Positions 11,011-43,181 of a DNA stretch of 47,297 nucleotides are shown piece by piece (within the stretch, counting starts at the first letter, position 1; every line of letters begins with the position of its first letter). Made by a program: the position numbers and the translations under genes. This DNA comes from Thalassotalea sp. PP2-459 (lineage in GTDB: Bacteria > Pseudomonadota > Gammaproteobacteria > Enterobacterales > Alteromonadaceae). The notes beneath the pieces are model-generated. The model did no database searches. It saw only the letters and a list, made by a program, of their open reading frames with translations, and was not told the origin of the DNA. Location of the stretch: contig NZ_MKQD01000036.1 of assembly GCF_001913705.1 (NCBI RefSeq), positions 1 through 47,297 on the forward strand, written 5' to 3'.

Positions 11011-13608
11011 TTATTTAACGATAATTTCATCCGCGAATATAAATGCTTCTTGCCCTGGACGAATGTGCCACTTTGGCAGCTTTGAGATATTTTTTGCAGT
11101 TACTTTTATGTAACGCATTCGTTTGGGCGTAAATGCTACTTTAAATTGCTTTAGTTGATAGTCTGGTACATTGGCTTTTGTTTCATAGGATTCTTTACCA
11201 AGTAAAGTAAAATTACTCCCGTCTTCTGATTGTGAAAAACGTACTTCTGTAGGCAGCAAAATGGAGTGAAGAACACTTTGTAAAAAGCCAATTTCAATCG
11301 ATGACACCGATGTTAGTTCTCCCAGATCTATCACAACAGACAAATCTTTTTGGCGATAGCCTTGCCATAATGTTTTATAATCGGGGCCACCTGACAAGCC
11401 GTCAATTAACGTATCATTTCCATTGGCGGCATACTTTTCATCATACAATGACAACAAACGAATATCTTTTCCTACAGCAAGGTGACTTACCTTAGTGATC
11501 TCACCATATTTTTTACCTTGCTCAAATTTTAAAGTCTTTTTACGAGCAATTTCATTATGCTGAGCAACCGTTAAACGTTGAAAATCAATCCCTTTTCTAG
11601 CCGGAGTAAGATAAAAAGCGTGTCCACCTCCACTGGCCATAGCAACTGTTAATTGATCCCCCTTGTTTACAACAAGCTCATTAATTTCTATATCCGCTGG
11701 AGAATCTTGAAAATCTGTTGTCATTGCGTCAGAAAATGCTCGGACAATATAATTTGTGTTCTCCTCAAGAAAATCCAATGAAACATCGACCGTCCTCGGC
11801 TTTTCATCTGTCATACTTCCTATAAACCATTGACTACCCTTTCGGCGAGCTATCGTAATAAAATCACCAATTTCACCATGAAGTACTTTTGTTTCATCCC
11901 ACGTAGTAGGAACAGCTTCTATGAACTCAAAGGCAGGTTGTTCATGATAATTTTCAATCATGTCTGCCGCCATTTGCATTGGACTATACAAAACAACGAA
12001 CATGGCAAGCTGTTTAGCCAAAGTAGAATGCACTCGATATTGACCGTGCGGATCAAATTGAATATTAAAAATTCCAGGGGTATAGTCCATAGGACCTGCA
12101 AGTAACCTAGTAAAAGGTAATGTTACCGTGTGTTCCGGTGAATTCCCTTCACTCCAGCCATTCCACTCCATTCCACGTCCCCCTTCACGTGTCATCATAT
12201 TCGGGTAAGTTCGTCGTATTCCTGTCGGCTTTATCGGTTCATGTGCATTCACCATAATGCGGTATTTAGCAGCAAGCTCTACTACTCTTCGGTAATGATT
12301 AACCATCTGTTGGCCATGATGAAAAACACCTTCAGGGTGCATTTTTCCAGCATAGCCTGTTTTAATTGCATGAACACCTACCTCATGATAGAGTTTAAAA
12401 GCAGCTTCCATTTGTTGCTCATACATAGGAATATTGCCACCTGTTTCATGATGACCAATTAAAGCGATATTATTTTTTCTACCGTATTGAACAACCTCAG
12501 CTAAGTCAAAGTCATCATAAGCCGTAGTAAAGTCTTGTACATTGTGGCCTGTATGCCATGTTTCCCAGCCTTGATTCCATCCCTCCACTAAAACGCCGCC
12601 GATACCATGCTGCTTAGCAAAATCAATGTAGGATTTAGTATTTTCAGTAGTAGCGCCATGCTTTGGTCCTGACTCCCATGTATATTTCCTCATGTGCATC
12701 CCCCACCAGATACCGATATATTTCATAGGTTTTATCCAAGAACTGTCGGTAATAACGCTCGGCTCATTTAAATTTTCTATTAAGTTGGATTCAATTAAAT
12801 CAGCGGCACGTTTAGCAATTTGAATGGTTCGCCATGGTGTTTTAAAAGGGGCTTTTCCTTTAACTTTTATACCGTCAGGCCAAGGCACTAAGTCACTCGT
12901 TAATCGTAATGCTTGCCCGTTTTTTTTAATTAACGTCATCCCAGCATAGTTAGTTAAAGCTGCTTCATGAATACTTAAGAAAACATCATTTTTACCTTTC
13001 ATGGTAATGGGTGTATTCACCGCCGTTATTTGCGATAGTGGTGTTTTTTTGTATAAATGCTCATAACTATCATAATCGGCAGGAGTCCACCAAGTCGTAT
13101 AATTATCCGTAAAAGCAAATTCGGTTTCTTCTGATGTTATGGCAAAGGTTGTTAGGTTTTTTTGTTCCGGAAATTCATAACGAAACCCTAAACCATCATT
13201 AAAAAGACGAAAATAAAGATGTAATCGACGAGGGAACTCACCTGACTCACTAAGCACAACCTTCAGTTGTCGATAGTGGTTTTCTGCTGTGCTTGTTTGC
13301 CCCCAAACTTTTTTCCATGGTGCATTTACTTCGCTAACGTCAGTAGATTCCACGACAAAGTTTGCTAGCATGTTTGCTTGTGATTGAAATTTAAACCCTA
13401 ACGTTGAAGGTTTGATCAACTCAACTCTGTCATAAGATACTTGATATTGTGCTATACCTGTTTTTACTGAAAAAGTTAATTTAATACGCTTATCTGGAGA
13501 ATCAATCATATATTTGTCATTAGCACAAACACCAAAAGCAAAACAAATACTCATCAAAAACATAACGTGTTTAATTATGTTTAAAAATGATTTTCCTGAC
13601 ATACTCAT
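11011..13608 (-). CDS. GH97 glycoside hydrolase, predicted inverting alpha-glucosidase, with C-terminal F5/8C-like domain
   Basis: 865 residues with a signal peptide (hydrophobic residues ~12-29). The GH97 barrel carries all acidic residues of the inverting SusB-type subgroup at matching spacing: HHE (Glu388), AHE (Glu457), TRE (Glu475) and RGME (Glu481). These correspond to SusB Glu439, Glu508, Glu526 and Glu532 (bases, calcium ligand, acid); intervals 69, 18 and 6 are identical. Glu215 in SIHEA is a candidate for the remaining calcium ligand. This argues against the retaining alpha-galactosidase subgroup. Residues ~735-865 form a discoidin-like beta-sandwich not found in SusB. It is the last gene of unit B and overlaps the glycosylasparaginase gene by four bases. 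It may remove alpha-glucose caps from immature high-mannose glycans; this role is inference. Confidence 0.85.
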   Translation of the reverse strand: MSMSGKSFLNIIKHVMFLMSICFAFGVCANDKYMIDSPDKRIKLTFSVKTGIAQYQVSYDRVELIKPSTLGFKFQSQANMLANFVVESTDVSEVNAPWKKVWGQTSTAENHYRQLKVVLSESGEFPRRLHLYFRLFNDGLGFRYEFPEQKNLTTFAITSEETEFAFTDNYTTWWTPADYDSYEHLYKKTPLSQITAVNTPITMKGKNDVFLSIHEAALTNYAGMTLIKKNGQALRLTSDLVPWPDGIKVKGKAPFKTPWRTIQIAKRAADLIESNLIENLNEPSVITDSSWIKPMKYIGIWWGMHMRKYTWESGPKHGATTENTKSYIDFAKQHGIGGVLVEGWNQGWETWHTGHNVQDFTTAYDDFDLAEVVQYGRKNNIALIGHHETGGNIPMYEQQMEAAFKLYHEVGVHAIKTGYAGKMHPEGVFHHGQQMVNHYRRVVELAAKYRIMVNAHEPIKPTGIRRTYPNMMTREGGRGMEWNGWSEGNSPEHTVTLPFTRLLAGPMDYTPGIFNIQFDPHGQYRVHSTLAKQLAMFVVLYSPMQMAADMIENYHEQPAFEFIEAVPTTWDETKVLHGEIGDFITIARRKGSQWFIGSMTDEKPRTVDVSLDFLEENTNYIVRAFSDAMTTDFQDSPADIEINELVVNKGDQLTVAMASGGGHAFYLTPARKGIDFQRLTVAQHNEIARKKTLKFEQGKKYGEITKVSHLAVGKDIRLLSLYDEKYAANGNDTLIDGLSGGPDYKTLWQGYRQKDLSVVIDLGELTSVSSIEIGFLQSVLHSILLPTEVRFSQSEDGSNFTLLGKESYETKANVPDYQLKQFKVAFTPKRMRYIKVTAKNISKLPKWHIRPGQEAFIFADEIIVK

Positions 13609-14628: not shown

Positions 14629-15519
14629 CTAATTGGCTCTTAATTGCATGTGTTTGGCAAAACTAATTGCCCCTTGCTCTGCATTGTGTATTGGCGAGGA
14701 TAGCTCTTTAGCAAGCGTTACAGGCAACATAGGAATGAGTTGCCTTGCAACTCCTCCTAATAATGTAATTCTTGGTGGGTTAGTGTTTTTCAATAAATCA
14801 ATGGTACGAACGATAAACTGACAACTGTCTTTAATCAGTTGTTGTGCAACAACGTCCCCTTTTGCAGCTGCATTGAATACAAGTGGGGCTATAGCGCCAA
14901 AATCTCTAGCGCCGGCTTCTGCTAATGTATCAGCCAGCTGGTAGCCACTGGCATTAAAGTGCTGTGTTACCAGTTCACATAATAAGCTAGGCTGAGCATA
15001 ACCATCATATGATAACAATGCTTTTTGTACCGCTTGATAACCTAACCAAGAACCACTGCAATGATCGGCTTGAAGAAAGCCATATCCGCCAATCATTGTT
15101 TTCACGCCATTGACTAAAGAAAGTGCGCTAAATCCTGTGCCAACAATAACCATGGCTCCATCACCACCAGCATGTGCACCGATAGTAGCGACATGTAAAT
15201 CATCGGTATAATACATCGCTTTAAACGGATGCTGCCAATTTTGCATCATCGTCAGATAACGAGGTAAATGCAACCCTGCCAACCCCGCGCCAACGACAAA
15301 CTGTCCATAATGTTGTTCCGAAAGTTCTGCTTGCTTTAGTGCTTCCTTAAACGCTGTCATAATCGAAAGAATAACAGTTGCTCGACCATGTGAAGGATTT
15401 GCTGTGCCTCCTATACCCTGTCCGAGAAATTGACCACATGACGATTCAATACGCACTCGACAATGCGTACCACCACCATCTATACCCGCATAAAAAACTT
15501 CGCCATTAACTACTTTCAT
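14629..15519 (-). CDS. BadF/BadG-family N-acetylglucosamine (amino sugar) kinase
   Basis: 296 residues of the ASKHA ATPase fold. The phosphate-1 motif is AGIDGGGTHCRVRI, phosphate-2 is MVIVGTGFSAL, and the adenosine motif is ITLLGGVARQLIPML. The segment GGYGFLQADHCSGSWLGYQAV is typical of the eukaryotic NAGK / bacterial GspK group. It most likely phosphorylates GlcNAc (or glucosamine) in the cytoplasm, using the amino sugar freed by the glycosylasparaginase and beta-mannosidase of the same operon. No nagA or nagB is nearby, so later steps would be encoded elsewhere. It starts three bases after the GH92 gene. GlcNAc versus GlcN preference cannot be read from sequence. Confidence 0.85.
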   Translation of the reverse strand: MKVVNGEVFYAGIDGGGTHCRVRIESSCGQFLGQGIGGTANPSHGRATVILSIMTAFKEALKQAELSEQHYGQFVVGAGLAGLHLPRYLTMMQNWQHPFKAMYYTDDLHVATIGAHAGGDGAMVIVGTGFSALSLVNGVKTMIGGYGFLQADHCSGSWLGYQAVQKALLSYDGYAQPSLLCELVTQHFNASGYQLADTLAEAGARDFGAIAPLVFNAAAKGDVVAQQLIKDSCQFIVRTIDLLKNTNPPRITLLGGVARQLIPMLPVTLAKELSSPIHNAEQGAISFAKHMQLRAN

Positions 15520-15522: not shown

Positions 15523-17760
15523 TTAATCACGCTCACGTGACTGGAATGAAAACGTTAAATGACCTGACCGCTTAAGTTCATCATGTGTAATATGGTTACG
15601 ATTAAGCTTTTGTCCATTTAGATCAATATTATCTACAAAGTTTTCACCTGTGCTGCCCAGCTGTTTAATTGTAAACTTTTGGTCATTGGCTAATGTTAGT
15701 GTCACTTCATCAAATAATGGCGTGCCAAAAATATACTTTCCATCAGCTGGATTTACAGGGTAGAAACCAAGTGAACTGAAAATATACCAAGCAGACATTT
15801 GACCAACATCATCATTGCCCGCCAAACCATCTGGATCCGCACGATACATTGTTTTTCTAATTTCTTTTATTCGTGCTTCACCTTTCCATTTTTGATCCGT
15901 AAAAGCGTATAAATAAGGAATATGGTGGCACGGCTCATTACCATGAGCATATTGGCCGATAAGTCCTGAAATATCCGGTGAAACATCACCCTCCATTTCT
16001 GAGCTCACCGTAAACAATTGGTCTAATTTATTAATAAAAGCTTGTTCACTTCCAAATAAATTCTTTAGTCCATTTACGTCATGTGGAACAAACCACGTAT
16101 ATTGCCATGCATTAGCTTCTGTATAATCAGTAGTGCGATGATCAACATGAGTAGGGCTAAAGTTTTCTACCCATTGACCTGACTGATCTTTGCCACGCAT
16201 AAAACCAACACGTTTATCAAACAAGTTTTTATAGGACTGTGCTCGTTTGGTGAAATATTGATAGTCATCATCTTTGCCTATCGCTTTAGCTAATTCGGCA
16301 ATTGCCCAATCATCGTAGGCATATTCTAAAGATTTAGAAACAGCCTCAACTTCTAATTCTGAAGGGATATAACCATATTTGTCGAACAAATCGATACCAA
16401 ACTTATTTTGCATTGCAGATGTTTTGCTTGCTTGTAACAGTTTCTCAGGATCAACTGTCGTTAATCCCTTCAAGTAAGCATCAACAATAACGGGAACCGC
16501 ATGATATCCAATCATCACATCTGTTTCATTCGACATCAGATCCCAAGTTGGCAAAACACCTGATTCATCGTAAAAGGCCATCATCGACTTTATTAAGTCA
16601 TCCACTAATTTGGGATTAGTGATCGTCAATAATGGATGTAATGCTCGAAAAGTATCCCATAGAGAAAATAATGTATAACGGTTATACCCTTCAGCAACAT
16701 GAGTTTTTCCATCAGCACCGTAATATTCACCATTGGCATCACTAAATAAATGTGGTGCCATAAAAGCGTGATATAGGGCAGTGTAGAACTTTGTTTTCTC
16801 TATTTCATTATTATCTTTTACTTGAATTTTATTCAGCTGATCCCGCCATAAGCTCTCTGCTGCTAACTTAGTTTTATCAAAGTCAAAAAACGGTGCTTCA
16901 ATGGCAATATTTTTACGAGCGCCTTCAATACTGGCATATGAAATGCCCACTTTGACAGTGACACTTTTATTATTCAATTGAGCAAAACTTAGTACAGCTT
17001 CACTTTTTTCTGCTTGAATACTATCGCCTGATACCATTTTCTTTTCATTAAATAGCTGAGCTGAAAACGCTTCACTAAATTCCATGACAAAGTACACAGG
17101 TTGAAATTTAGCCCAACCAGTTGATTTACGATAACCAACTAACGTAGTGTTATTTTCAATACGAAAATACGTATCAACAGCCTTATCAAAATTTTGTGCA
17201 TACCCTAAGTCTACGAGTATTTGTGGTGTCCCCTCGCCACCAAAATGATACCTGTGTACACCTACACGTGCAGTTGCCGTTAGTTCAGCTTTAATATCTT
17301 CTTGGGGTAAATAAACAGAATAATAACCCGCTGATGCTTTTTCATCTTCCTTTTGATATTTTGCATACAAATGACCAACGTCATTATTAGTGTTTTCAGG
17401 ATAGTTTGATACAAAAGGCATCACCAAAATATCCAATAAATCGCCAACTCCAGTACCCGATAAATGGGTATGACTGAAACCTAACAAAGTATCGTCAGAG
17501 TAGTGATAACCAGAAGTCCAGTCCCATCTTTCTTTCGTCAAATTATCAGGGCTAAGTTGAACCATACCAAAAGGTACTGTAGCACCAGGGAATGTATGGC
17601 CGTGGCCACCAGTACCAATAAAGGGGTCCACATAGGATAGAACATCAACGGTCTGTTCTGGTTTAACCGACTGTTTTGAGTTTGATTTACCCAACTGATT
17701 TTGACTACAGCCTAGTGTCAAAAGTAATGCAGCAGCGGATAACATAATTCTTTTTTTCAT
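15523..17760 (-). CDS. GH92 exo-alpha-mannosidase, lipoprotein (canonical acid)
   Basis: 745 residues with lipobox LTLGC (Cys18, +2 Ser, so outer-membrane sorting expected). GH92 blocks in order: YVDPFIGTGGHGHTFPGAT near residue 45, WDWTSGYHY, GFSHTHLSGTG, LWDTFRALHP, the acid motif HGNEPCHH (Glu609), and GLAGNDDVGQMSAW with the Asp pair that acts as base. GH92 enzymes are calcium-dependent inverting alpha-mannosidases. The intact HGNE motif with the following HH is the form seen in alpha-1,2-mannosidases of high-mannose glycan systems, but linkage cannot be fixed from sequence. It lies between the SSS symporter and GlcNAc kinase genes in unit B. Confidence 0.92.
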   Translation of the reverse strand: MKKRIMLSAAALLLTLGCSQNQLGKSNSKQSVKPEQTVDVLSYVDPFIGTGGHGHTFPGATVPFGMVQLSPDNLTKERWDWTSGYHYSDDTLLGFSHTHLSGTGVGDLLDILVMPFVSNYPENTNNDVGHLYAKYQKEDEKASAGYYSVYLPQEDIKAELTATARVGVHRYHFGGEGTPQILVDLGYAQNFDKAVDTYFRIENNTTLVGYRKSTGWAKFQPVYFVMEFSEAFSAQLFNEKKMVSGDSIQAEKSEAVLSFAQLNNKSVTVKVGISYASIEGARKNIAIEAPFFDFDKTKLAAESLWRDQLNKIQVKDNNEIEKTKFYTALYHAFMAPHLFSDANGEYYGADGKTHVAEGYNRYTLFSLWDTFRALHPLLTITNPKLVDDLIKSMMAFYDESGVLPTWDLMSNETDVMIGYHAVPVIVDAYLKGLTTVDPEKLLQASKTSAMQNKFGIDLFDKYGYIPSELEVEAVSKSLEYAYDDWAIAELAKAIGKDDDYQYFTKRAQSYKNLFDKRVGFMRGKDQSGQWVENFSPTHVDHRTTDYTEANAWQYTWFVPHDVNGLKNLFGSEQAFINKLDQLFTVSSEMEGDVSPDISGLIGQYAHGNEPCHHIPYLYAFTDQKWKGEARIKEIRKTMYRADPDGLAGNDDVGQMSAWYIFSSLGFYPVNPADGKYIFGTPLFDEVTLTLANDQKFTIKQLGSTGENFVDNIDLNGQKLNRNHITHDELKRSGHLTFSFQSRERD

Positions 17761-17799: not shown

Positions 17800-19590
17800 T
17801 TAATTTTCTAATTTGTCGTACCAATTTTTCTTTAAAATAAATGATGTTATAAGCATGACGACTATTGCAATGACCATTGAATTTGCTTCTTTTATCACTA
17901 AATAAATAGGGATAACCACTAAAGATATTTGCCAAATCATACCTACTACGATATTGAGGACATCACGTCTAAAATTAGCGTTACTAACAAAATTCGGATC
18001 TTGCGCCAATACTTTTTGGTGAATAGGTTGCCAAAAACCCCAAGGACGTACATTTTTATAAAAGGTCATCAGTACGTCATCTTTTTCTGGCGGTGTTAAT
18101 AATGTGCCTAGGACTGAACCGGTAATTCCGGCCAATAGAAGGAAAGGAAACGCGTATAAGGGCTGTAAATCGGGATATATTAACGGTAAAGCTAATGATG
18201 CAATCAATCCAGACATCATCCCCCAAAAGTAACCAAATGCATTGAAGCGCCACCAATGCCATTTAAGTAAGTTTGCAGCTGCGTAACCACCAAATAAAGC
18301 AGCGAAAATCCATTGCATGATGTCGTTTATACTAGAAATAAGGTAACCAACACCGACTCCAGCAACCACTAATAAAGTAGATATGAGATAGCTGAACAGA
18401 ATATAATGCCGTTCACTTCCACGCGGATTAAAGTAACGCTTGTAAACATCATTGACGATATACGCTGGTGCGGCATTAACTGAAGCAGCGAAGGTCGACA
18501 TAAAAGCAGCCAATAGGCCAGCAATCAAAAGACCACTTAAGCCAACAGGAATAAAGTTTTCAATGGCATAAGGTAAAATTTGTTCAAAATCAAAAGCCTC
18601 ATTGCTGCTTTGTATTTCAGGCCCCATAAATACTAAAGCTAATACTGATAATCCAGCTACCATCATGTATCGCGGAAAAAACATCACTAATGACACTATC
18701 CCACTCATCTTTGCTGCTTCTTTGGCATTTTTTGTTGCTAGAATACGCTGCATATCATAGTTAGGAACTGGCCCTGCTAAGCTCGATAAAATCCCCTTGA
18801 ATAACATCATCATAAAAAAAATGCCGAATAAGCCAAAACCATCATCCGTCATCTTTTGATTAACTGAGTCAATTACGCCTGTCCAGTTAAGATCTAAATG
18901 CCAACCAAATGACAACTCTTTCCAGCCAGCAGGAATAGCAGCGTTCAAAGCGTCACTACTTACAGTATTCATAGCGATGACGCCCACAGCAATAGCCGCA
19001 ACCGTCATAATGACGAATTGCAATAATTCTGTAAAAACTACGCTGTACATGCCTCCTTTCACAACATATAGCGTGGTAAAAGTAAAAATAATCAGTGCGT
19101 AGGTATCAGGAGATAAGTCCCAAGGGAAAAAAATAACGGCAAACTTACCTATTCCTTTAAACGCATAAGAAATAAAGCCTATAGCACTGACTACAGCAAA
19201 TATCACTACCGCAAGATGAGAAAGCTCAGCACCACGACCATCACCAAAACGAGTTTTTAACCATTCAGCCCCCGTCATAACGTTAGAACGTCGTAACCAT
19301 GCTGATAAATAAATCATTAAAAACACTTGGTTAAATATCGGCCATATCCAAGGTAACCATGCGCTTTTCAAACCATAGACAAAGCACATCGATACCAACC
19401 ACATGGTACCTGCAATATCAAACATGCCAGAAGCGTTTGATACACCAAGTGCCCACCAAGGAATTTTACGGCCACCAAGAAAGTAAGAGTCAATGTTTTT
19501 AGATGCACGTTTAGATAAGCTAAAGCCTATCGCCAATGTTGCAATTAAATAAAAAACGATAATCAGTATATCAACAGGTTGTAACGACAT
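17800..19590 (-). CDS. sodium:solute symporter (SSS family), sugar importer candidate
   Basis: 596 residues with about 14 membrane helices. The N-terminus shows the SSS pattern: DILIIVFYLIATLAIGFSLS, then NIDSYFLGGRKIPWWALGVSNASGMFDIAGTMW. It contains the YVVKGGMYSVVFTELLQF segment typical of the family. The gene sits 17 bases after the beta-mannosidase gene. Because that enzyme has no export signal, this permease is the best candidate for carrying Man-beta-1,4-GlcNAc, or GlcNAc, across the inner membrane. The substrate is inference from context. The C-terminus extends past the last core helix with two further helices. Confidence 0.87.
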   Translation of the reverse strand: MSLQPVDILIIVFYLIATLAIGFSLSKRASKNIDSYFLGGRKIPWWALGVSNASGMFDIAGTMWLVSMCFVYGLKSAWLPWIWPIFNQVFLMIYLSAWLRRSNVMTGAEWLKTRFGDGRGAELSHLAVVIFAVVSAIGFISYAFKGIGKFAVIFFPWDLSPDTYALIIFTFTTLYVVKGGMYSVVFTELLQFVIMTVAAIAVGVIAMNTVSSDALNAAIPAGWKELSFGWHLDLNWTGVIDSVNQKMTDDGFGLFGIFFMMMLFKGILSSLAGPVPNYDMQRILATKNAKEAAKMSGIVSLVMFFPRYMMVAGLSVLALVFMGPEIQSSNEAFDFEQILPYAIENFIPVGLSGLLIAGLLAAFMSTFAASVNAAPAYIVNDVYKRYFNPRGSERHYILFSYLISTLLVVAGVGVGYLISSINDIMQWIFAALFGGYAAANLLKWHWWRFNAFGYFWGMMSGLIASLALPLIYPDLQPLYAFPFLLLAGITGSVLGTLLTPPEKDDVLMTFYKNVRPWGFWQPIHQKVLAQDPNFVSNANFRRDVLNIVVGMIWQISLVVIPIYLVIKEANSMVIAIVVMLITSFILKKNWYDKLEN

Positions 19591-31349: not shown

Positions 31350-32366
31350 TTATGTATAACTTGACGTTACTTGTCCAGAGCTTTCCCGTTCCAATAAGCT
31401 GAAAGGAACAATTTCCCTGTCTTTAATCAGGGGTTGATTTTTAATTTGCTTAAGCACAACTTCAACCGCTTTACGGCCCATTTCATAAGCAGGTTGGTCG
31501 ATGGTCGTTAAGGGCGGATCAACATAGGCGGATACTTTAATATTATCAAAACCAACAACTGAAATGTCTTCCGGTACTGATAAACCTTGTCTTTTAATTT
31601 CGTGGATAGCACCGATTGCAATATCATCATTAAAACAAAAAATAGCCGTTGGCCTATCTTTATGAGCTAACAGCTCCCTAGCTCCTGCTTCGCCAGCCTC
31701 AATGCTATACTCACCACCAACGATCAACGCGGCATCAAGAGCTATTTTCTCTTCTTGTAAGACACTTTTTATGCCGCCTAAGCGATCCCGATAAATTTGA
31801 CTTTCTTTTTGACCACCTATCACGCCAAAATTTCTATGCCCGTAGCTCACTAAATGATTCGCTAATGCTCTACATGCTGAGTAATTATCTAGTTCCACCA
31901 CCGGATATTGTTTTTTTGATACGATTCGCTCACATACACTTACCATAGGAATATTTTCGGCAAGATCCTGATCACTTTTAGAAAAAGGAAAAGAATGATC
32001 TAGATGTATCAACCCATCAGCTCGGTTAGATAATACCATACCAGCATATTCATGCTCACGAGCAGGATCACCTTGCGTATCTCCTAATAACACCGAATAA
32101 CCACTTTCTTGAGCCGCTTGTTCAATTCCTTGAATAATCTTTAAAAAGAAAGGGTTAGAAAGATTAGGTACAAGGATAACGAGAGAATTAGAGCGACCTG
32201 TTTTTACGCTTGATGCTAATACATTAGGACGATAACCAGCCTCTGCAATTGCTTTAAAGATTCGCTCTCTCGTATTAACATTTACCATATCAGGGTTTTT
32301 TAATGCTCTGGATACTGTCGCTGTAGAAACACCAGCGAGTTGACAAACTTTTTTTATTGTTGACAT
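31350..32366 (-). CDS. LacI-family transcriptional regulator of the N-glycan/mannose locus
   Basis: 338 residues from the chosen start. The N-terminal helix-turn-helix and hinge are canonical: [20 protein letters not shown], then [20 protein letters not shown] periplasmic-binding-like effector domain follows ([48 protein letters not shown]). The start at 32366 gives the normal LacI N-terminus; an upstream in-frame ATG at 32417 would add 17 residues without family support. It sits between the oppositely transcribed units. The effector is probably mannose, a mannose phosphate or a small mannoside. A near-match operator in its own promoter suggests autoregulation. Confidence 0.93.
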
Positions 32367-32412
32367 TGTTTCACGTACCCCCCAAAAGTAAATTGTAAAC
32401 TCGGAACAAAAA

Positions 32413-32426
32413 TGCAACCGATAACA
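32413..32426. promoter_or_regulatory. degenerate LacI-type operator upstream of the regulator gene
   Basis: TGCAACCGATAACA matches the locus palindrome at 12 of 14 positions. It lies 46 bases upstream of the regulator start, a position suited to autoregulation. The two mismatches suggest weaker binding. Confidence 0.5.
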
Positions 32427-32600
32427 TCTATGTCAAATTATCCGTTTATAATTTGACATAATATCGCATTAAATTCTATGGCATTCATTAAATTTTAATA
32501 GCTATACATAAGAATTTCCTAATTATTTTTAACTTGTTTAAAGTCAGAGACACAAATCTCTATTGAATTAAATAAATTCATCGTATAACATCTTAAAAGA

Positions 32601-32614
32601 TGCAATCGATTACA
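32601..32614. promoter_or_regulatory. LacI-type operator in front of unit C
   Basis: TGCAATCGATTACA, a perfect palindrome copy 88 bases upstream of the first GH92 start of unit C. Confidence 0.8.
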
Positions 32615-32702
32615 TAGTAATATTCCATCTATGAATGCCTTGATGGAAAAATAAAAAAACTATAAATAAAACAACAAACTAATAAAAGATGAAGACTCAA
32701 TA

Positions 32703-35136: not shown

Positions 35137-36396
35137 ATGGCTGGAAACATTCCAACGGGGAATACATTTAAAGCAACAGGAGCAATGAATACTAAATTTG
35201 CTTTTATTGCGATGACAACCTTGTTTTTTATCTGGGGATTTATTACTGCATTAAATGACATTTTAATTCCTCATTTAAAAGCGGCATTTGATCTTAACTA
35301 CACTGAAGCAATGTTGGTGCAATTTTGCTTTTTTGGTGCTTACTTTATTATCTCTCCTTTCGCGGGTAAATTAATTGAGAAAGTAGGTTATCAACGTGGC
35401 ATCATTATTGGTTTACTTACCATTGCAGCTGGTTGCCTCTTGTTTTATCCAGCAGCAGAAGTTGAAATTTATGCCATTTTCCTACTTGGCTTATTTATTC
35501 TTGCTAGCGGCGTCACAATATTGCAAGTATCAGCCAACCCATATGTCGCGATCCTGGGTTCAGAAACAACAGCAGCTAGTCGCCTCAATTTAGCGCAAGC
35601 TATTAATTCTTTAGGTCATACTTTAGGCCCTGCATTTGGTGCAGCACTTATATTTGGTGGTACAGCGACAATCATAGCCGCAACGGCAGTTCAGTTACCT
35701 TATTTAATTTTAGCCAGTGTCATGATAATTACAGCGGTGATATTTAGTCGTATACAACTTCCAGTTATTACTGACGTTGAAACAACAGATACCACAGAAG
35801 CGCCTAATGATTCTGTTTTTAAACACCCTCCACTTTTGTTTGGTACCTTAGCTATCTTTTTGTATGTAGGGGCAGAAGTCTCTATCGGTAGCTTTCTCGT
35901 TAATTTTTTTGCAGAAAGTCATATTGGTGGTTTAAGTGAGCATGAAGCCAGTAAAATGGTGTCATATTATTGGGGTGCGGCCATGATCGGACGTTTTATT
36001 GGTGCCGCTTTAATGAGAATCATTAGACCATCATTTTTATTAGCCTTTAATGCCATGATGGTTATTTTACTGATCACTTTAACTGTTAACAGTAGTGGTC
36101 AAACTGCGATGTGGGCGATCCTCAGTGTAGGTTTTTTCAACTCAATTATGTTTCCTACTATCTTTACCTTAGCCATTAAAGGACTCGGTCCATTAACCGG
36201 TCGAGGGTCTGGCTTATTATGCCAAGCAATTGTCGGAGGTGCGGTTATTCCAATGCTTCAAGGCGTTGCAGCTGACGTAACATCAGTACAGGCTAGCTTT
36301 ATCGTACCTGCTTTTGCTTATGTTTATATCGCTTGGTACGCACTAAAAGGCTCTAAAAGTACGAATATCAACAATGCAGCAGAGGTAAAAGCATGA
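35137..36396 (+). CDS. FucP/GluP-type sugar:proton symporter (MFS), mannose importer candidate
   Basis: 419 residues with 12 membrane helices. FFIWGFITALNDILIPHLK near residue 30 is the FucP-family signature containing the substrate-binding Asn-Asp. FFGAYFIISPFAGKL and LQVSANPYVAILG are also typical. In gammaproteobacteria such permeases carry glucose, mannose, GlcNAc or fucose. Its stop overlaps the fructokinase start (ATGA), and an AGE isomerase follows, which favours mannose. Substrate is inference. Confidence 0.88.
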   Translation: MAGNIPTGNTFKATGAMNTKFAFIAMTTLFFIWGFITALNDILIPHLKAAFDLNYTEAMLVQFCFFGAYFIISPFAGKLIEKVGYQRGIIIGLLTIAAGCLLFYPAAEVEIYAIFLLGLFILASGVTILQVSANPYVAILGSETTAASRLNLAQAINSLGHTLGPAFGAALIFGGTATIIAATAVQLPYLILASVMIITAVIFSRIQLPVITDVETTDTTEAPNDSVFKHPPLLFGTLAIFLYVGAEVSIGSFLVNFFAESHIGGLSEHEASKMVSYYWGAAMIGRFIGAALMRIIRPSFLLAFNAMMVILLITLTVNSSGQTAMWAILSVGFFNSIMFPTIFTLAIKGLGPLTGRGSGLLCQAIVGGAVIPMLQGVAADVTSVQASFIVPAFAYVYIAWYALKGSKSTNINNAAEVKA

Positions 36397-37367
36397 AACC
36401 CGTCTTATGTTTTGGCGAAGCGCTAATCGATTTTTTAAATACAGGAAAGCAAGAAGACGGTCCCCTTGTTTTGAATAACTATCGCCAATATCCAGGTGGT
36501 GCGCCAGCAAATGCTGCGGTAGCTGTAGCCAAACTTGGCGGTAAAGCATTATTTGCAGGTCAAGTAGGTAATGATGCCTTTGGTCACTTTCTAGAACAAG
36601 CATTGATAGAATATGGCGTTGATACTCAGTTTTTAACCAAGCACCCTAGCGCCAAAACGGCGCTAGCATTTGTTATGCTAGACAGTGAAGGTGACAGAAG
36701 CTTTTCTTTTTATCGTGATGGTTCCGCAGATGTGCTTTTTAGTGAACAGCAGATTGATGATAAATGGTATGAAGATCAACCTTTATTTCACTTTTGTAGC
36801 AATACACTAACTGACAAAAGCATAGCGATAGCAACTAAAGCTGCCGTTACACGAGCAAAAGCGAAGCAGTCATTGGTAAGTTTTGATGTTAATTTACGTC
36901 ATAATTTATGGTCTACTGGCCAAGCTAATGTACAATTAGTTAATGAACTCGTTTATATCTCAGATATTGTTAAGTTCTCACGTGATGAATTAGAGTACCT
37001 CGCCCAAGGGAACAATCAAACTTACATTCAATCCTGTCTTGATAACGGTGTCTCATTGTTAGTTATTACTGATGGCGAGCATCCAATTGAGTTTTACTCA
37101 ACCATTGGACAAGACACAATACCAGTACCTGATATTAAAGCTGTAGATACCACAGCAGGCGGCGATGCATTTAGCGGTTCTCTGCTATTTGCATTAAGTA
37201 AATTGTCAGAACCAAAAACTGCGCTGTTTTCAATGGATATACTTAGAGAGTTAATTACGTTTGCGTCAAACTGTGGTGCTCATACAGTAACTTTACCAGG
37301 CGCATTTCCTGCCCTACCTCGCTTTAGTGATATAGAACAACATTGGCCAACAGATCTTTATCTATAA
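36393..37367 (+). CDS. PfkB-family fructokinase
   Basis: 324 residues of the ribokinase/PfkB fold. The N-terminus VLCFGEALIDFL and the YPGGAPANAAVAVAKLGG block are those of bacterial ScrK-type fructokinases. The C-terminal signature is VDTTAGGDAFSGSLL, with the catalytic Asp in GGD. It would convert fructose to fructose-6-phosphate with ATP. Its ATG overlaps the permease stop by four bases, and the AGE-family gene follows at once, so the intended substrate is probably fructose made from mannose. Confidence 0.88.
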   Translation: MKPVLCFGEALIDFLNTGKQEDGPLVLNNYRQYPGGAPANAAVAVAKLGGKALFAGQVGNDAFGHFLEQALIEYGVDTQFLTKHPSAKTALAFVMLDSEGDRSFSFYRDGSADVLFSEQQIDDKWYEDQPLFHFCSNTLTDKSIAIATKAAVTRAKAKQSLVSFDVNLRHNLWSTGQANVQLVNELVYISDIVKFSRDELEYLAQGNNQTYIQSCLDNGVSLLVITDGEHPIEFYSTIGQDTIPVPDIKAVDTTAGGDAFSGSLLFALSKLSEPKTALFSMDILRELITFASNCGAHTVTLPGAFPALPRFSDIEQHWPTDLYL

Positions 37368-37394
37368 CCATTGATACCCGATTTGGAGAGAAAT

Positions 37395-38621
37395 ATGAAA
37401 CCAGCACAACAACCATTACCAGAAGAGGCGTTTTATAGCCGCGATTTTTTACTCAAACATGGCCAATCAATTCTTAACTTTTATAACCCAAGGGTAATTG
37501 ATAATACGGGCGGTTACTTTCAAAACTTCCGTGATAATGGCGACCATTTTGATGATAAATTCAGACAGCTTGTCAGTAGTACACGCATCGTTGTTAACTA
37601 TGCTCTTGCCAGTTTGGTGTATGATAACAATGAATACCTTAGCATGGCTAAACACGGCTTAGATTATGTAGAACAAGTACATTGGCAACAAGACAAGCAA
37701 CGCTACGCATGGACGTTAAACGATCACCAAGCTAATGACATGACCCAACAAGCCTATGGTTACGCCTTTGTATTACTTGCATATGCTGCAGCAAAAAAAT
37801 CAGGCCTTATCAACAGTAACGATAAACTACTTACTGTTTATCAGTTACTTGAAGAGCGCTTTTGGCAAGCCGAATTTGGCTTATATGCCGACGAAATCAG
37901 TGCCGATGGACAATTAAGTGATTACCGTGGTCAAAATGCTAACATGCACTTATGTGAAGCGATGATTGCCGCCTACGAAGCAACATCAGACACATTATTT
38001 TTACAACGTGCGCAAACCATTGCTGAAAATATTGCTATTCGCCAAGCTGATCTCACTGATGGGTTAGTATGGGAACATTACACTACCGAGTTTACGCCTG
38101 ACTGGGAATACAACAAAGACGATCCAAAAAATCTATATCGCCCTTGGGGATTTCAACCCGGCCACCAAACAGAGTGGACCAAATTACTGTTAATGCTTAA
38201 CCGACATCAACCACAAAGCTGGTTAGTTGAACGCGCCAAATCATTATTCGATCGTGCTTATCAAACAGCATGGGATAATGAGCACGGCGGTTTAATCTAC
38301 GGATTTGATCCGCAAGGAAAATGCTGCGATAACGATAAATATTTTTGGGTGCAAGCAGAAAGCTTTGCTGCTGCTGCAATGTTATATCAAGTCACCAAGG
38401 ATAAAAAATACTTAGAGCAATACAATGCATTATGGCAATACAGCTGGCAGCATATGGTTGATCATCAACACGGAGCATGGTTTCGTATCTTAAAACATAA
38501 CAACACTAAATACAGTGACCAAAAAAGTGCTGCTGGTGCAAAATGTGATTACCACACATTAGGCGCATGCTTTGAAGTATTACGTGTACTTGGCGACGAT
38601 ACCTTAAATAGAAAGCTTTAA
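37395..38621 (+). CDS. AGE-family sugar epimerase/isomerase, predicted mannose isomerase
   Basis: 408 residues from ATG 37395, chosen for the strong GGAGAG eight bases upstream; the alternative TTG at 37371 is unlikely. The (alpha/alpha)6 barrel family is shown by NTGGYFQNFRDNG, HWQQDKQRYAWTL, FQPGHQTEWTKLL (catalytic His) and CDYHTLGACFEVLR (second catalytic His). The family includes GlcNAc 2-epimerase, mannose isomerase (YihS-like) and cellobiose epimerase. Placement directly after a fructokinase and in a mannose locus favours mannose-to-fructose isomerisation. A mannobiose or GlcNAc epimerase cannot be excluded. Confidence 0.85.
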   Translation: MKPAQQPLPEEAFYSRDFLLKHGQSILNFYNPRVIDNTGGYFQNFRDNGDHFDDKFRQLVSSTRIVVNYALASLVYDNNEYLSMAKHGLDYVEQVHWQQDKQRYAWTLNDHQANDMTQQAYGYAFVLLAYAAAKKSGLINSNDKLLTVYQLLEERFWQAEFGLYADEISADGQLSDYRGQNANMHLCEAMIAAYEATSDTLFLQRAQTIAENIAIRQADLTDGLVWEHYTTEFTPDWEYNKDDPKNLYRPWGFQPGHQTEWTKLLLMLNRHQPQSWLVERAKSLFDRAYQTAWDNEHGGLIYGFDPQGKCCDNDKYFWVQAESFAAAAMLYQVTKDKKYLEQYNALWQYSWQHMVDHQHGAWFRILKHNNTKYSDQKSAAGAKCDYHTLGACFEVLRVLGDDTLNRKL

Positions 38622-38637: not shown

Positions 38638-40926
38638 ATGCAGTACCGCTTGGTTCAGTCGACGCACAATGACGTAAAAAAAATAGTGTTCGGTGTTTTT
38701 ATAACGATATTATTAACAACGGCTTGCACGCAAAAACCAAATGCAACCAAGCCTCAACACAATAACACACTCATTTCCTATGTAGATCCTTTTATTGGCA
38801 CGGCCGGAAAAGGTAAAACCTACCCAGGAGCTACCCAACCTTATGGTATGGTGCAATTAAGTCCAGATAATGGTCGCAATGGTTGGGATTGGATTTCAGG
38901 TTATTTTTATCCTGATAATGTTATTGCCGGTTTTAGTCATACTCACCTTTCCGGCACAGGTGCTGGTGATTTATATGATATTTCGTTTATGCCATTGGCA
39001 GGTGAAGTAAAACAAGCAGTATTAGACGATGTAAAAAAAACACCAACCATTTATTCGTCTTTCTCTCATGATAATGAATCTGCTTCGCCTGGTTATTATC
39101 AGGTTTTTTTAACCGATTACGACATTAATGTTGAATTAACGGCAGGTTTAAGAAGCGGGGTTCAAAAATATACCTTTGCTGATAAACATCAACATGGACA
39201 AGTAAAATTAGATTTAAATTATTCACGTAATTGGGACGCTACGATTGCCACTAACATTAACGTGATTGATGATTACACTATTTCAGGTTACCGAAAGTCT
39301 ACCGGCTGGGCTAAAGATCAGCGAGTATATTTTTATACCACCTTTTCTGAAAAAATCACTTCTATCGATATCAGTGTTGCTGAAAAAGCCATTCAAACAA
39401 CAAAGACACATTACACAACAACCAAAGGCGATGGTTTAACAGCCCTGCTACATTTTGATGTCAGCAAAAACAAGAAAATTACGGTTAAAACAGCGATCAG
39501 CTCAGTCAGTAGTGAAAATGCCAAACTAAATTTACTAAGTGATGGAGCAGAAAAAAGTTTTACACAGGTAAAACAAGAAAGTGAACTATTATGGGAACAA
39601 GCGCTAGCAAAAGTAAAAGTTAACGCAACTCCTGATAACATGGTGCAGTTTTACACGGCACTTTATCATTCTTATTTAGCACCTCGCGTATTTTCAGATA
39701 GTAATGGACAATACAAAGGCCCTGATGGCAATATTCATCAGTCTACAGAAAACCCACGTTATTCTTTTTTCTCTTTATGGGATACCTTCCGAGCATTACA
39801 CCCATGGAAAACAATTACCGACACAGAACACAGCAAAGCCATGATGCATTCACTTATGGCCCATTATCATGAATATGGGCTATTACCCGTGTGGAATTTT
39901 CAAGGTAACGAAACCGATATGATGATGGGCTATCATGCCGTACCAGTACTGGCTGATGCGTATCTAAAAGGTGTTATTACTGATAAAGACATTAATGGTG
40001 AAGAGTTATTCGTCGCCATGAAAAAAAGTGCGATGCAAACTAATTTTAGCATTAAAGAATATCGTGAATTGGGCTATGTTCCCTTTGAACAAGGTAACTG
40101 GAATGTGTCATTAACGCTTGAGTATGCTTTTGACGATTGGAGCATAGCCCAAATGGCAAAGGCTTTAGGTAAAGCAGACGATTACCAGTTATTTTCCCAA
40201 CGAGCCTTAAACTACCAACAGCATTTTGATCACAATACAAATTTCATGCGCGCTAAAGGCTTAAACGGCGAATTTAAAGATAACTTTGATCCATTAGCCT
40301 ATCATCCAGAAGATTATTGCGAAGCTAACGCCTGGCAGTATAACTTTTTTGTGCCTCATGATATTCATGGGCTTATTAAGTTGATGGGTGGGTCTGAAAA
40401 GTTTAATCGAAAACTCGATAACATGTTTACTACTGCCCAACAAGTAGATCCCAAAACAAATATGTTGCCTGAATGGATATCAGGTTACATAGGTCAGTAT
40501 GTACACGGCAACGAACCAGCACATCACGTCCCATACTTGTACCAATTTATAGACAAACCTCATAAAACTCAGCAACGCGTACGACAAATTATGTCTACTT
40601 TATATACAACAAAACCCGATGGCCTTGTTGGTAATGAAGATGCCGGTCAAATGTCAGCTTGGTATATGTTTAGTGCACTTGGTTTTTATCCGGTAAACCC
40701 AGTATCTGGTGAATATATTTTAGGTAGCCCAGAAGTTAATCAAGCAACAATATCACTGCCCAACGACAAAACATTTAACATCATCGCCAAGAACCAATCA
40801 GAAGATAATATTTATGTTGAGTCAGTATTTTTGAATGATAAAAAACACACTTCCTTTAAAATTAGCCATGAAGAAATTATGGCGGGTGGCACACTCATAT
40901 TTAACATGACTTCGGAGCAACAGTAA
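38638..40926 (+). CDS. GH92 exo-alpha-mannosidase, lipoprotein
   Basis: 762 residues. A long charged N-region precedes the lipobox LTTAC (Cys30); the start is supported by AAGGA seven bases upstream. GH92 blocks: YVDPFIGTAGKGKTYPGAT, WDWISGYFYP, GFSHTHLSGTGAGDL, LWDTFRALHPW, HGNEPAHH (Glu626 acid) and GLVGNEDAGQMSAWY, where the usual Asp-Asp is Glu-Asp. It is closest in layout to the unit B GH92 enzyme (15523-17760). Likely an alpha-mannosidase on high-mannose glycans; linkage not readable. Confidence 0.92.
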   Translation: MQYRLVQSTHNDVKKIVFGVFITILLTTACTQKPNATKPQHNNTLISYVDPFIGTAGKGKTYPGATQPYGMVQLSPDNGRNGWDWISGYFYPDNVIAGFSHTHLSGTGAGDLYDISFMPLAGEVKQAVLDDVKKTPTIYSSFSHDNESASPGYYQVFLTDYDINVELTAGLRSGVQKYTFADKHQHGQVKLDLNYSRNWDATIATNINVIDDYTISGYRKSTGWAKDQRVYFYTTFSEKITSIDISVAEKAIQTTKTHYTTTKGDGLTALLHFDVSKNKKITVKTAISSVSSENAKLNLLSDGAEKSFTQVKQESELLWEQALAKVKVNATPDNMVQFYTALYHSYLAPRVFSDSNGQYKGPDGNIHQSTENPRYSFFSLWDTFRALHPWKTITDTEHSKAMMHSLMAHYHEYGLLPVWNFQGNETDMMMGYHAVPVLADAYLKGVITDKDINGEELFVAMKKSAMQTNFSIKEYRELGYVPFEQGNWNVSLTLEYAFDDWSIAQMAKALGKADDYQLFSQRALNYQQHFDHNTNFMRAKGLNGEFKDNFDPLAYHPEDYCEANAWQYNFFVPHDIHGLIKLMGGSEKFNRKLDNMFTTAQQVDPKTNMLPEWISGYIGQYVHGNEPAHHVPYLYQFIDKPHKTQQRVRQIMSTLYTTKPDGLVGNEDAGQMSAWYMFSALGFYPVNPVSGEYILGSPEVNQATISLPNDKTFNIIAKNQSEDNIYVESVFLNDKKHTSFKISHEEIMAGGTLIFNMTSEQQ

Positions 40927-40928
40927 TT

Positions 40929-43181
40929 ATGCGTACTTTTTTATTATGTTTCTTAGTGTGCACATTCACGCATGCCACCGAAACAGTCACTCAATATGTT
41001 AACCCTTTTATTGGTACTTCTAATTTTGGCGCAACACACCCCGGTGCGCAATACCCGCATGGTATGGCATCTGTTGTTCCGTTTAATGCTGCATTTAAAG
41101 CAGGTAAAGAAAATACATTTGAAAAAGACGAGGCATGGAATTCACGAGGGTACATCCATGATAATAACTTTCTAACCGGTTTTAGTCATGTCAATTTAAG
41201 TGGTGTTGGTTGCCCAGACTTAGGTAGCCTCTTATTGATGCCAACGACAGGGAGTTTAGAATTTGACGCGGAAAAATATGGCGCTACTTACAGCAATGAA
41301 GAAGCCTCTCCAGGATATTACCGTAATACCCTTAATAAATACGGAATTGATGTAGAAGTCACTAGCACCTTACGTACAGGCCTTAGTCGGTATACCTTTC
41401 CTAAAGGACAATCTCAAATTTTACTAAATTTAGGCTTAGGTCTCACTAATGAAACGGGTGGCATGCTAAAGGTGGTATCAAACAACGAAGTCGAAGGCTT
41501 TAAAATGCTGGGTACTTTTTGTTATAACCCAGAGGATGTTCGTCCTGTTTATTTTGTCGCTAAACTGAGTAAAAAAGCTAAAACGGCTGGTGCATGGAAA
41601 AAAATGCCGACGTATAAAAACGTTGAGGCAGAATGGGTTGGTTACAACGATAGCTATAAGCCCTATGAAAACTATCGACAAGAAATTGCAGGTGATGATA
41701 TTGGTGCGTACTTCCAGTTTGACACGCAAGAAAATGAGCAAATTGAAGTTAAGCTAGGTATTTCCTACGTTAGTATTAGCAATGCAAGAGAAAACCTTGA
41801 GGCAGAACAACCCGAATTTTCATTTGAGCGCACCAAAGAAAAATCTCAACAAAAATGGCAACAACTGCTTGAACGTATTACCGTTAAAGGCGATACAGAA
41901 AAGAAAACTATTTTTTATAGCGCACTCTATCATACACTGATTCACCCTAATATCATTCAAGACATCAATGGAGATTATCCATTGATGGGACAATCAGGTA
42001 TTGGTAATAATCAAGAAAAAACGCGTTACAGTGTATACTCATTATGGGACACCAATAGAAACCTTCACCCTCTGTTAAGCCTTGTTTACCCAGAAATACA
42101 ATCTGATATGGTGAATTCTATGGTAGACATGGCTAAAGAAAGTGGCTGGTTACCTAAATGGGAATTACTGGGCATGGAAACACAAGTCATGGTAGGTGAT
42201 CCTGCAACACCTGTCATTGCTGATACCTATTTACGTGGCATACAAGACTTTGATATTGATAGTGCTTACAATTTTGCAAAAAAAGCTGCGAGTGTTGAAC
42301 AAAACAACCTATTACGTCCAGAAAATAAAGCATATTTAACACATGGCTATGTGCCTGTTGATGGAGAAGGTCAATGGGATGGTACTGTATCAACTAGCCT
42401 AGAATACTATATCGCTGACTGGAACCTTGCACAGCTAGCAAAAGCATTAGGTAAAAAGCAAGATCATGACACTTTTTTACAGCGTTCTATGGGTTATAAA
42501 AAATTATTTGATCCTAAGACAGGTATGCTTCGTCCTAAGCACATCAATGGAAAATGGCTAACACCTTACGACCCTCAACTAGGCCGAAATTTTGAACCCG
42601 CTCCTGGGTACATCGAGGGAAATGCTTGGAACTATCGCTTTTATGTTCCCCATGATATTAATGGGCTTATGGAATTACTTGGCGGTGAAAAACATTTTCT
42701 TGAGCAACTTGAACAAACTTTTATTACTGATAATTTCGATATGGCAAATGAGCCAGATATCACCTACCCATTTCTCTATAATTATATAGAGGGCGAAGAA
42801 TGGCGTAGCCAAAAACGAGTAATGGAGCTAATAGAAAAACATTACCATAATACACCTGGTGGCATTCCTGGTAATGATGATGCCGGTACCCTTTCAGCAT
42901 GGTTAGTTTTCAGTATGATGGGTATATATCCAGTTTCACCTGGCGATATGCATTATGCCGTTGTATCACCCTCATTTAATGAAGTAACAATAAAGCTCAA
43001 TTCAGATTACTATGCGAATAAAAATTTAGTGATAAAATCAAAACAAAATGACTCTGAAGGTAAGTATATTTCAAACATTTTGTTTAATAATGAAAAGATT
43101 AACTCCTATTTCATCAATCACAATGCATTGGTCAAAGGTGGTGAGTTGTTATTTTTGATTGGCGATGAAAAGTCTAAATAG
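40929..43181 (+). CDS. GH92 exo-alpha-mannosidase, secreted, divergent subgroup
   Basis: 750 residues with a signal peptide (MRTFLLCFLVCTFTHA) and no lipobox, unlike the other three. The N-terminal block is YVNPFIGTSNFGATHPGAQYPHG. The acid motif reads ANEPDITYPFLYNY (Glu608 kept, but the HGN and HH context is lost), and the base motif is IPGNDDAGTLSAW. These differences place it in another GH92 subgroup, so a linkage other than alpha-1,2 (for example alpha-1,3) is plausible. It begins two bases after the preceding GH92 stop and ends unit C. Confidence 0.9.
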   Translation: MRTFLLCFLVCTFTHATETVTQYVNPFIGTSNFGATHPGAQYPHGMASVVPFNAAFKAGKENTFEKDEAWNSRGYIHDNNFLTGFSHVNLSGVGCPDLGSLLLMPTTGSLEFDAEKYGATYSNEEASPGYYRNTLNKYGIDVEVTSTLRTGLSRYTFPKGQSQILLNLGLGLTNETGGMLKVVSNNEVEGFKMLGTFCYNPEDVRPVYFVAKLSKKAKTAGAWKKMPTYKNVEAEWVGYNDSYKPYENYRQEIAGDDIGAYFQFDTQENEQIEVKLGISYVSISNARENLEAEQPEFSFERTKEKSQQKWQQLLERITVKGDTEKKTIFYSALYHTLIHPNIIQDINGDYPLMGQSGIGNNQEKTRYSVYSLWDTNRNLHPLLSLVYPEIQSDMVNSMVDMAKESGWLPKWELLGMETQVMVGDPATPVIADTYLRGIQDFDIDSAYNFAKKAASVEQNNLLRPENKAYLTHGYVPVDGEGQWDGTVSTSLEYYIADWNLAQLAKALGKKQDHDTFLQRSMGYKKLFDPKTGMLRPKHINGKWLTPYDPQLGRNFEPAPGYIEGNAWNYRFYVPHDINGLMELLGGEKHFLEQLEQTFITDNFDMANEPDITYPFLYNYIEGEEWRSQKRVMELIEKHYHNTPGGIPGNDDAGTLSAWLVFSMMGIYPVSPGDMHYAVVSPSFNEVTIKLNSDYYANKNLVIKSKQNDSEGKYISNILFNNEKINSYFINHNALVKGGELLFLIGDEKSK

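Follow-up and report, generated by a model that had tools for sequence, protein, structure and literature searches.

CutC as a candidate enzyme of the GlcNAc-Asn branch of a predicted LacI-controlled N-glycan regulon in Thalassotalea sp. PP2-459

The 47,297-nucleotide window analysed here (G000:C36:1-47297; G, C and L numbers are our designations of genomes, contigs and loci), taken from the 4.08-Mb, 85-contig genome of Thalassotalea sp. PP2-459, carries between positions 11011 and 43181 a gene block for the degradation of high-mannose N-glycans, and within this block lies a gene for the TIM-barrel protein CutC. We propose, with a probability of roughly 0.7, that the block forms a regulon under LacI control, directed at high-mannose N-glycoproteins, in which CutC acts as a cytoplasmic enzyme of the branch that processes the N-acetylglucosamine-asparagine (GlcNAc-Asn) stub. 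The association of CutC with glycosylasparaginase (AGA), the enzyme expected to cut this stub, is strong; the reaction that CutC would catalyse is what we infer from it.

CutC and its association with glycosylasparaginase

The CutC gene (22256-22999, minus strand) encodes a protein that matches PF03932 (7e-50; 169.7 bits against a cut-off of 23.3) and shows no signal peptide by eye, and its start overlaps by one base the stop of a gene for a GH85 endo-beta-N-acetylglucosaminidase. The same arrangement recurs across a family-level sample of 157 genomes, from which 32 stretches were fetched, comprising 21 GH85 loci and 11 CutC loci without GH85. CutC adjoins GH85 on the same strand in all 21 of these GH85 loci, with an overlap of one or four bases in 20 of them; the 22nd GH85 locus of the sample is the window itself. 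The AlphaFold model of the window protein is a TIM barrel (pLDDT 95.5) whose match to human CUTC (3iwp, E 1.9e-21) places it in the CutC family. Among the residues invariant in 54 aligned CutC proteins are E32, R66, R68, G70, F72, H131, R132, D135 and G159, joined by E5 and C7 where the alignment covers them; in the model, the invariant residues sit at or just after the ends of barrel strands, as an active site does. The nearest solved folds outside CutC are MJ1099, ribulose-phosphate epimerase and KDPGal aldolase, whose substrates carry phosphate.

In the family sample, 30 genomes carry CutC, 25 carry AGA and 22 carry GH85, and every genome with AGA or GH85 also has CutC. True AGA is well separated here, scoring at least 421.9 bits against at most 120.2 for the next class. 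Fisher's test gives 1.5e-20 for GH85 with CutC and 2.1e-24 for AGA with CutC, related genomes being counted without correction for kinship. In nine genera with both CutC-positive and CutC-negative members, the pattern of AGA equals that of CutC in eight and that of GH85 does so in seven, in a comparison confined to genomes listed by genus, which leaves out 23 genomes lacking an AGA match.

A second sample, 148 genomes of the order of Pontibacter, was chosen because CutC adjoins AGA in Pontibacter. Both genes are present in 57 genomes, CutC only in one, AGA only in four and neither in 86, an agreement of 143/148 (phi 0.93); GH92, included as a control for lifestyle, reaches a phi of 0.28 with CutC. 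Among the 96 GH92-negative genomes of this order, CutC is found in 28, AGA in 27 and both in 27, the AGA count including ten divergent proteins considered below. AGA is no more than 200 bp away from 16 of the 60 CutC copies in the order and no more than 10 kb away from 20, and the AGA-CutC pairs often have no match beside them to the window's GlcNAc kinase (NagK), the one kinase sought.

A scan of named genomes extended the comparison to many phyla, with the best 80 of 560 CutC loci kept and 74 of the 80 genomes searched whole for AGA. AGA was sought near CutC with a six-frame hidden Markov model (HMM) to which nine of the 19 positive loci contributed rows; the longest-open-reading-frame caller undercounts AGA (11/80 within three genes), and a codon-based caller misses CutC itself in 15/80 loci. 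AGA accompanies CutC in 19 of the 80 loci, and in 14 it lies at most 151 bp upstream on the same strand: these are five Bacteroidota and every one of the nine Xanthomonadales in the set. On a tree of 109 CutC proteins, freed of duplicates (L017, L019 and L020 are the genes of L226, L222 and L232), the AGA/GH85-linked label needs 14 changes, at least five of them forced by starred branches, against a shuffled mean of about 33.5. Pfam tallies of neighbouring genes were partial and biased and are not relied on. Upstream, Asparaginase_2 is commonest (6/58), with L037, L071 and L088 added by hand in the knowledge that they carry AGA; downstream, among 54 (L036 and L044 added by hand), transglutaminase-like domains occur five times and GH2 mannosidase domains four times.

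Several further CutC genes were encountered. The Thalassotalea genome holds a second, stand-alone copy outside the block (G000:C33:10523-11119; L010, L239), located by eye after a response-regulator gene and 44% identical in product, and G616 and G673 likewise have two CutC genes. In L231 of genome G443, which has no match to the window AGA, a CutC near that of the window in the tree lies upstream of agmatine deiminase-like and N-carbamoylputrescine amidase-like genes (by eye). In some Bacteroidales a protein with a transglutaminase domain follows CutC (L036, L067 and L085; three of three inspected). An apparent CutC fusion in G819, a 650-residue open frame, was rejected as a chance frame running across the divergent neighbouring AGA gene on the opposite strand.

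A predicted LacI-controlled N-glycan block

Family calls for the block derive from open reading frames and a Pfam and NCBIfam scan of 20 proteins, with nearest solved structures compared for several; signal peptides were judged by eye from the N-termini. The features are as follows.

11011-13608, minus: GH97 enzyme with a C-terminal F5/8C domain (Pfam 2.9e-110); looks exported
13605-14609, minus: glycosylasparaginase, AGA (Asparaginase_2/glycosylasparaginase 3e-73); Tat-like N-terminus with KR
14629-15519, minus: GlcNAc kinase of NagK (SO3507) type, BadF family (301.9 bits, below the cut-off of 370); no signal
15523-17760, minus: GH92 alpha-mannosidase (Pfam/NCBIfam); lipoprotein-like signal
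17800-19590, minus: sodium:solute symporter, SSS (Pfam/NCBIfam)
19608-22142, minus: GH2 beta-mannosidase (nearest solved 7op6/2vjx, 777 bits); no signal peptide, cytoplasmic
22188-22203: predicted LacI-type operator in the gap between CutC and beta-mannosidase
22256-22999, minus: CutC, described above
22999-24750, minus: GH85 endo-beta-N-acetylglucosaminidase (PF03644, 3.9e-76); signal peptide
24912-27815, minus: lipoprotein with four F5/8C (discoidin) domains (Pfam); sole solved match the GH92 alpha-1,2-mannosidase 7nsn
27882-30818, minus: TonB-dependent receptor (TIGR01782, 607.8 bits)
30918-31026: pair of predicted LacI-type operators, starting at 30918 and 31011, 93 bp apart, before the receptor operon
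31350-32417, minus: LacI-family regulator (Pfam/NCBIfam)
32412-32427: predicted LacI-type operator at the 5' end of lacI
32600-32615: predicted LacI-type operator before the plus-strand operon
32703-35039, plus: GH92 alpha-mannosidase (Pfam/NCBIfam); lipoprotein-like signal
35137-36396, plus: MFS sugar permease of gluP type (325.5 bits, cut-off 202.55)
36393-37367, plus: PfkB-family kinase, probably fructokinase (fructokinase model 211.9 bits, below the cut-off of 450)
37371-38621, plus: AGE-family enzyme, probably mannose isomerase (D-mannose isomerase model 216.9 bits, below the cut-off of 600; nearest solved 3gt5/5x32)
38638-40926, plus: GH92 alpha-mannosidase (Pfam/NCBIfam)
40929-43181, plus: GH92 alpha-mannosidase (Pfam/NCBIfam)

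An earlier note on this DNA, made from the letters and translations, had listed the enzymes of an N-glycan degradation block, and every family that it named is encoded where it placed it; its list overlooked CutC at 22256-22999. It had also held that a TonB receptor and a discoidin lipoprotein stand in for SusC/SusD, which agrees with the TIGR01782 receptor, the F5/8C lipoprotein and the lack of SusD among the scanned proteins, and that GH125, GH76, nagA and nagB are missing from the locus. No GH125 appears among the Pfam and NCBIfam matches of the scanned proteins, GH76 is represented by one sub-threshold match of the AGE protein (23.6 bits, cut-off 25.9), and neither nagA nor nagB is among the 20 proteins. 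What escaped the note is that two nagA genes reside elsewhere in the genome, on C44 and C42 (TIGR00221, 304 and 313 bits; cut-off 226). By eye, an MFS permease and a NagB-II-like gene are also present at the former (L005, G000:C44) and a ROK-type kinase at the latter (L003, G000:C42).

Comparison with solved structures agrees with the family labels. The nearest solved relative of the AGA protein is a bacterial glycosylasparaginase (3ljq, 447 bits, 3e-133), the best full-length chain of another kind scoring 131.7 bits, and the protein carries the cleavage motif HDTIGM, two features that together set it apart from isoaspartyl peptidases. The GH85 protein is a predicted endo-beta-N-acetylglucosaminidase by the similarity of its catalytic domain, aligning over residues 37-569 with the solved bacterial enzyme 3fhq, including YGFDGW-IN-ET (nearest solved 3fhq/2vtf). 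The four GH92 proteins match Pfam at 1.5e-158 to 3.8e-172. An alpha-galactosidase role for GH97 is disfavoured, its nearest solved structures being alpha-glucosidases (5hqc, 620 bits, against 225 bits for the retaining alpha-galactosidase 5e1q); to the contrary, its sole NCBIfam match is to a retaining alpha-galactosidase model, at 336 bits far below the cut-off of 800. Signs of export, as judged by eye, are seen in AGA, GH85, GH97, GH92 and the lipoprotein and not in beta-mannosidase, NagK or CutC.

The predicted operators tie the two halves of the block together. Searched with the 16-mer ATGYAATCGATTRCAT, allowing up to two mismatches, the window holds five palindromic sites with a central CG where 0.10 are expected, a count that is partly circular on its own because the pattern was taken from the window's own palindromes. 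Of the 32 fetched stretches, 12 of the 21 with GH85 carry such sites, and the 11 CutC loci without GH85 carry none. Where a GH85 stretch includes lacI (L213, L216, L218, L220 and L226), there are three to six sites per locus, mostly between genes equivalent to those of the window. The site in the CutC/beta-mannosidase gap recurs at the same place in L216, L218, L220 and L226, and the 93-bp spacing before the receptor operon in L216, L218 and L220, with different spacings in L213 and L226. L232 has five sites, two of them inside genes, and six further GH85 loci have a single site in their first 97 bases, right before the receptor, where the stretches begin, so that sites outside them are possible. 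The idea that a locus without lacI has no operator, which came from 13 of the 32 loci, was overturned by the full set. In the window (32366-32427), the TTG called as the lacI start shares bases with an operator, and the ATG of MSTIKKV near 32366 is a likelier start.

With predicted operators before its operons, the block is best described as a LacI-controlled regulon, and the earlier note's word regulon is supported by the five operator-like sites. The cassette is widespread in the family and not peculiar to the Thalassotalea genome: 20 of the 21 fetched GH85 loci have the full set of receptor, lipoprotein, GH85, CutC, beta-mannosidase and symporter, the remaining stretch (L233) being without beta-mannosidase, symporter and GH92. 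Among the other gaps, L232 is without AGA and L213 without GH92, and no NagK was called in L223; the NagK-AGA position varies, before GH85 or after the symporter. Reduced loci without matches to the window mannosidases also exist, NagK-AGA-CutC in L229 and NagK-CutC-AGA beside receptor and lipoprotein in L228 and L230. Operators and conservation back the degradation of high-mannose N-glycans as the best reading of the block, with the GlcNAc-Asn stub handled as well as the free Man(n)GlcNAc, as the earlier note had it. CutC, the most surprising member of the block, was absent from the note's reading.

To the left of the block (112-10627) lie genes for a hybrid histidine kinase with an SSS-like part, an RND efflux pump with a HlyD/CusB-type adaptor and a chemotaxis receptor; to the right (43632-47004) are a potassium/proton antiporter gene, a tRNA-Ser (gga) and nadA.

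A proposed role for CutC and its alternatives

In the scheme that we favour, the discoidin lipoprotein and TonB receptor would bind glycoprotein or glycopeptide, GH85 would cut between the two core GlcNAc residues, and the GH92 enzymes would trim alpha-mannose in the envelope. Man-beta-1,4-GlcNAc would then enter the cytoplasm and be split by the unexported GH2 beta-mannosidase, its mannose passing through the AGE isomerase and fructokinase to fructose-6-phosphate and its GlcNAc through NagK to the NagA encoded elsewhere in the genome. The stub left on the peptide side would be cut by exported AGA into aspartate and 1-amino-GlcNAc. This product might be imported, perhaps via the symporter, and CutC may remove ammonia from it, or from its 6-phosphate after NagK, to give GlcNAc or GlcNAc-6-phosphate. 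Gene content, operators, conservation of the cassette, the co-occurrence and linkage of CutC with AGA and the TIM-barrel fold are computational results; the transport steps and linkage specificities are what we infer.

That CutC belongs to the GlcNAc-Asn branch is probable. We assign it to the product of AGA because the smallest sets are NagK-AGA-CutC (L229) and AGA-CutC pairs. The deamination of 1-amino-GlcNAc or its 6-phosphate is put forward tentatively, as a guess from the partnership with AGA and NagK; CutC might, with no greater assurance, be a glycosylamine-processing enzyme that clears the AGA product, a step otherwise left to spontaneous chemistry. 1-amino-GlcNAc has been called not metabolizable and unstable at acidic pH, according to the account available in PMC6960285. 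A deaminating step is proposed because a slightly alkaline, cold cell, such as we suppose for this host of cold sea water, would need help in breaking the compound down.

A number of observations weigh against this proposal. The main difficulty is one of location: import of the product must be assumed, as AGA appears to leave the cytoplasm and CutC shows no signal. Five CutC-positive genomes of the family sample are without AGA (G418, G443, G579, G645 and G683, the last with GH85), and every listed member of genera g1, g228 and g230 carries CutC, four of these members lacking AGA. In the order of Pontibacter, 10 of the 57 double-positives (G730, G749, G765, G780, G794, G807, G821, G835, G848 and G860) are small genomes of 1.1-1.6 Mb with only an AGA-like protein of 289-317 bits, and the single one inspected (G730, L274) has GTI in place of HDTI. 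When these ten genes are not counted as AGA, the order divides into 47 genomes with both, 11 with CutC only, 4 with AGA only and 86 with neither (phi 0.79). In the wider survey, AGA of at least 383 bits was found in 26 of the 74 CutC-positive genomes searched, a fragment in one and AGA-like proteins in three; true AGA was not found in the four spirochaete, the four Aeromonas and most Verrucomicrobia and gut Bacteroidales genomes searched, many of them incomplete metagenome assemblies. CutC matches were also obtained for an E. coli control and for 123 of the 295 genomes searched from the order to which the window belongs, a set in which AGA was not sought. In the two groups sampled, presence of AGA nearly guarantees presence of CutC; the converse is not true. 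C7 (38/38) and C34 (51/54) are widely conserved in the aligned CutC proteins and both are present in that of the window; we take them to correspond to the proposed copper ligands of human CUTC. The literature available to us adds that Lactobacillus casei uses GlcNAc-Asn compounds by a pathway with no enzyme given for the 1-amino-GlcNAc step (PMC6960285, in part), that the locus numbers of cutC (LSA1440) and asnA2 (LSA1693) of L. sakei are far apart and the two genes respond oppositely to ribose (PMC3146418, in part), and that depletion of CutC raises copper sensitivity in worm and human cells, as told in a review that, in the portion available, concludes a part in copper homeostasis (PMC11083455).

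These points bear unequally on the alternatives. CutC could serve the GlcNAc branch at another step, by isomerising or anomerising GlcNAc or GlcNAc-6-phosphate or by acting on the peptide-linked stub, and CutC-NagK pairs beside receptor and lipoprotein genes (L219, L227), a NagK-like kinase adjoining CutC in Asticcacaulis (L079), where the best AGA match reaches only 182 bits, and the closeness of the CutC fold to those acting on phosphosugars all speak for it. We consider it somewhat unlikely, given that CutC follows AGA almost one to one in the order of Pontibacter, often in a pair without a window-NagK match; to our knowledge, standard GlcNAc catabolism needs no such isomerisation or anomerisation. 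That the linkage merely reflects hitch-hiking by shared ancestry and lifestyle, with no functional coupling, would be helped by the counting of related genomes and the occurrence of both genes in glycan degraders, and is disfavoured to the point of being the least probable reading, since AGA follows CutC in eight of nine within-genus contrasts, the GH92 lifestyle control does not (phi 0.28), and the linked label changes 14 times on the duplicate-free tree, at least five of them forced. Hardly more probable is an assistant of AGA, either in folding or in keeping a Tat-exported precursor inactive in the cytoplasm. Such a role would account for the cytoplasmic partner of an exported enzyme, and the N-termini of AGA in the family cassettes are Tat-like by eye, with RR or KR (NCBIfam reports Tat for L229 and does not report it for the window); against it, no signal is visible by eye in the AGA relatives close to CutC in Pasteurellaceae (L046, L048), genomes with CutC and no true AGA are frequent, and the conserved residues are placed like an enzyme pocket in the model.

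A copper protein, placed in N-glycan loci for copper balance or to supply metal to a partner, is what the name and history of CutC suggest, and the wide conservation of C7 and C34 fits; we regard it as improbable. In 19 of the 21 GH85 loci all genes between the cassette ends match window proteins, none of a copper family; no copper gene lies inside the cassettes, the genes outside them being mostly not identified. The window does hold, at least 14 kb from CutC, an RND efflux pair (3733-7931) with an adaptor domain named for CusB or HlyD. Another residue stands in place of C7 in 9 of 18 CutC proteins from Pontibacter-order loci (by eye). The RNA MicL is said to explain the E. coli cutC mutant. 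The MicL promoter lies within the cutC region (PMC8216713), and the sigma-E response has been given as the cause of copper tolerance in cutC-overexpressing E. coli (PMC6338753). Worm and human cells that lose CUTC become more sensitive to copper, and the human protein binds Cu(I), though so weakly that it is judged an unlikely chaperone (PMC11083455, in part). A role for CutC in the GlcNAc-Asn branch remains the reading that we prefer.

Relation to known systems

The high-mannose polysaccharide utilization locus (PUL) of Bacteroides has SusC/SusD. As far as the portion of PMC10154615 available goes, it resembles the window block in deploying an endoglycosidase first and GH92 trimming after, and differs in using a GH18 enzyme (BT3987), where the window has GH85, a TonB receptor with discoidin lipoprotein, and a dedicated AGA branch. 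N-glycan systems have been described from Streptococcus and Bifidobacterium too (same source, in part). Another close parallel is the nix cluster of Xanthomonas, where N-glycan enzymes, a TonB receptor, beta-mannosidase, alpha-mannosidase and cutC (XAC3091) share one region and an asparaginase carries the next locus number after cutC, XAC3092; unlike for the window, no GH85 is named in the available parts of these papers (PMC6718126, PMC5700972). There cutC was listed among the nix N-glycan genes and read as copper resistance (PMC6718126, in part), and the other paper reports that VirK is predicted to be linked with CutC and asparaginase (PMC5700972, in part).

The fucosyl-GlcNAc-Asn pathway of L. 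casei (AlfH, AlfC, AsnA2, SugK) shares with the window a glycosylasparaginase and a sugar kinase, and differs in that its AGA is intracellular and the breakdown of 1-amino-GlcNAc is taken as spontaneous (PMC6960285, in part); the word CutC is absent from the text of that paper. The window protein is like the CutC family (PF03932; human CUTC 3iwp, Shigella 1twd) in sequence and fold and differs in the glycan-catabolic rather than copper role proposed for it. Our literature search found no text pairing CutC with glycosylasparaginase or aspartylglucosaminidase, and the proposed role in no title or abstract among those listed.

The block is a high-mannose N-glycan degradation regulon of an already known kind, which adds a TonB/discoidin, GH85-based design to the known N-glycan systems. 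Its locus turns the old question of CutC function into an assay with a named partner and a substrate class. If the proposal is true, glycoprotein turnover would have one more enzyme in its GlcNAc-Asn branch, and the copper label that CutC has carried for some thirty years, from bacteria to humans and including the human gene, would need revision.

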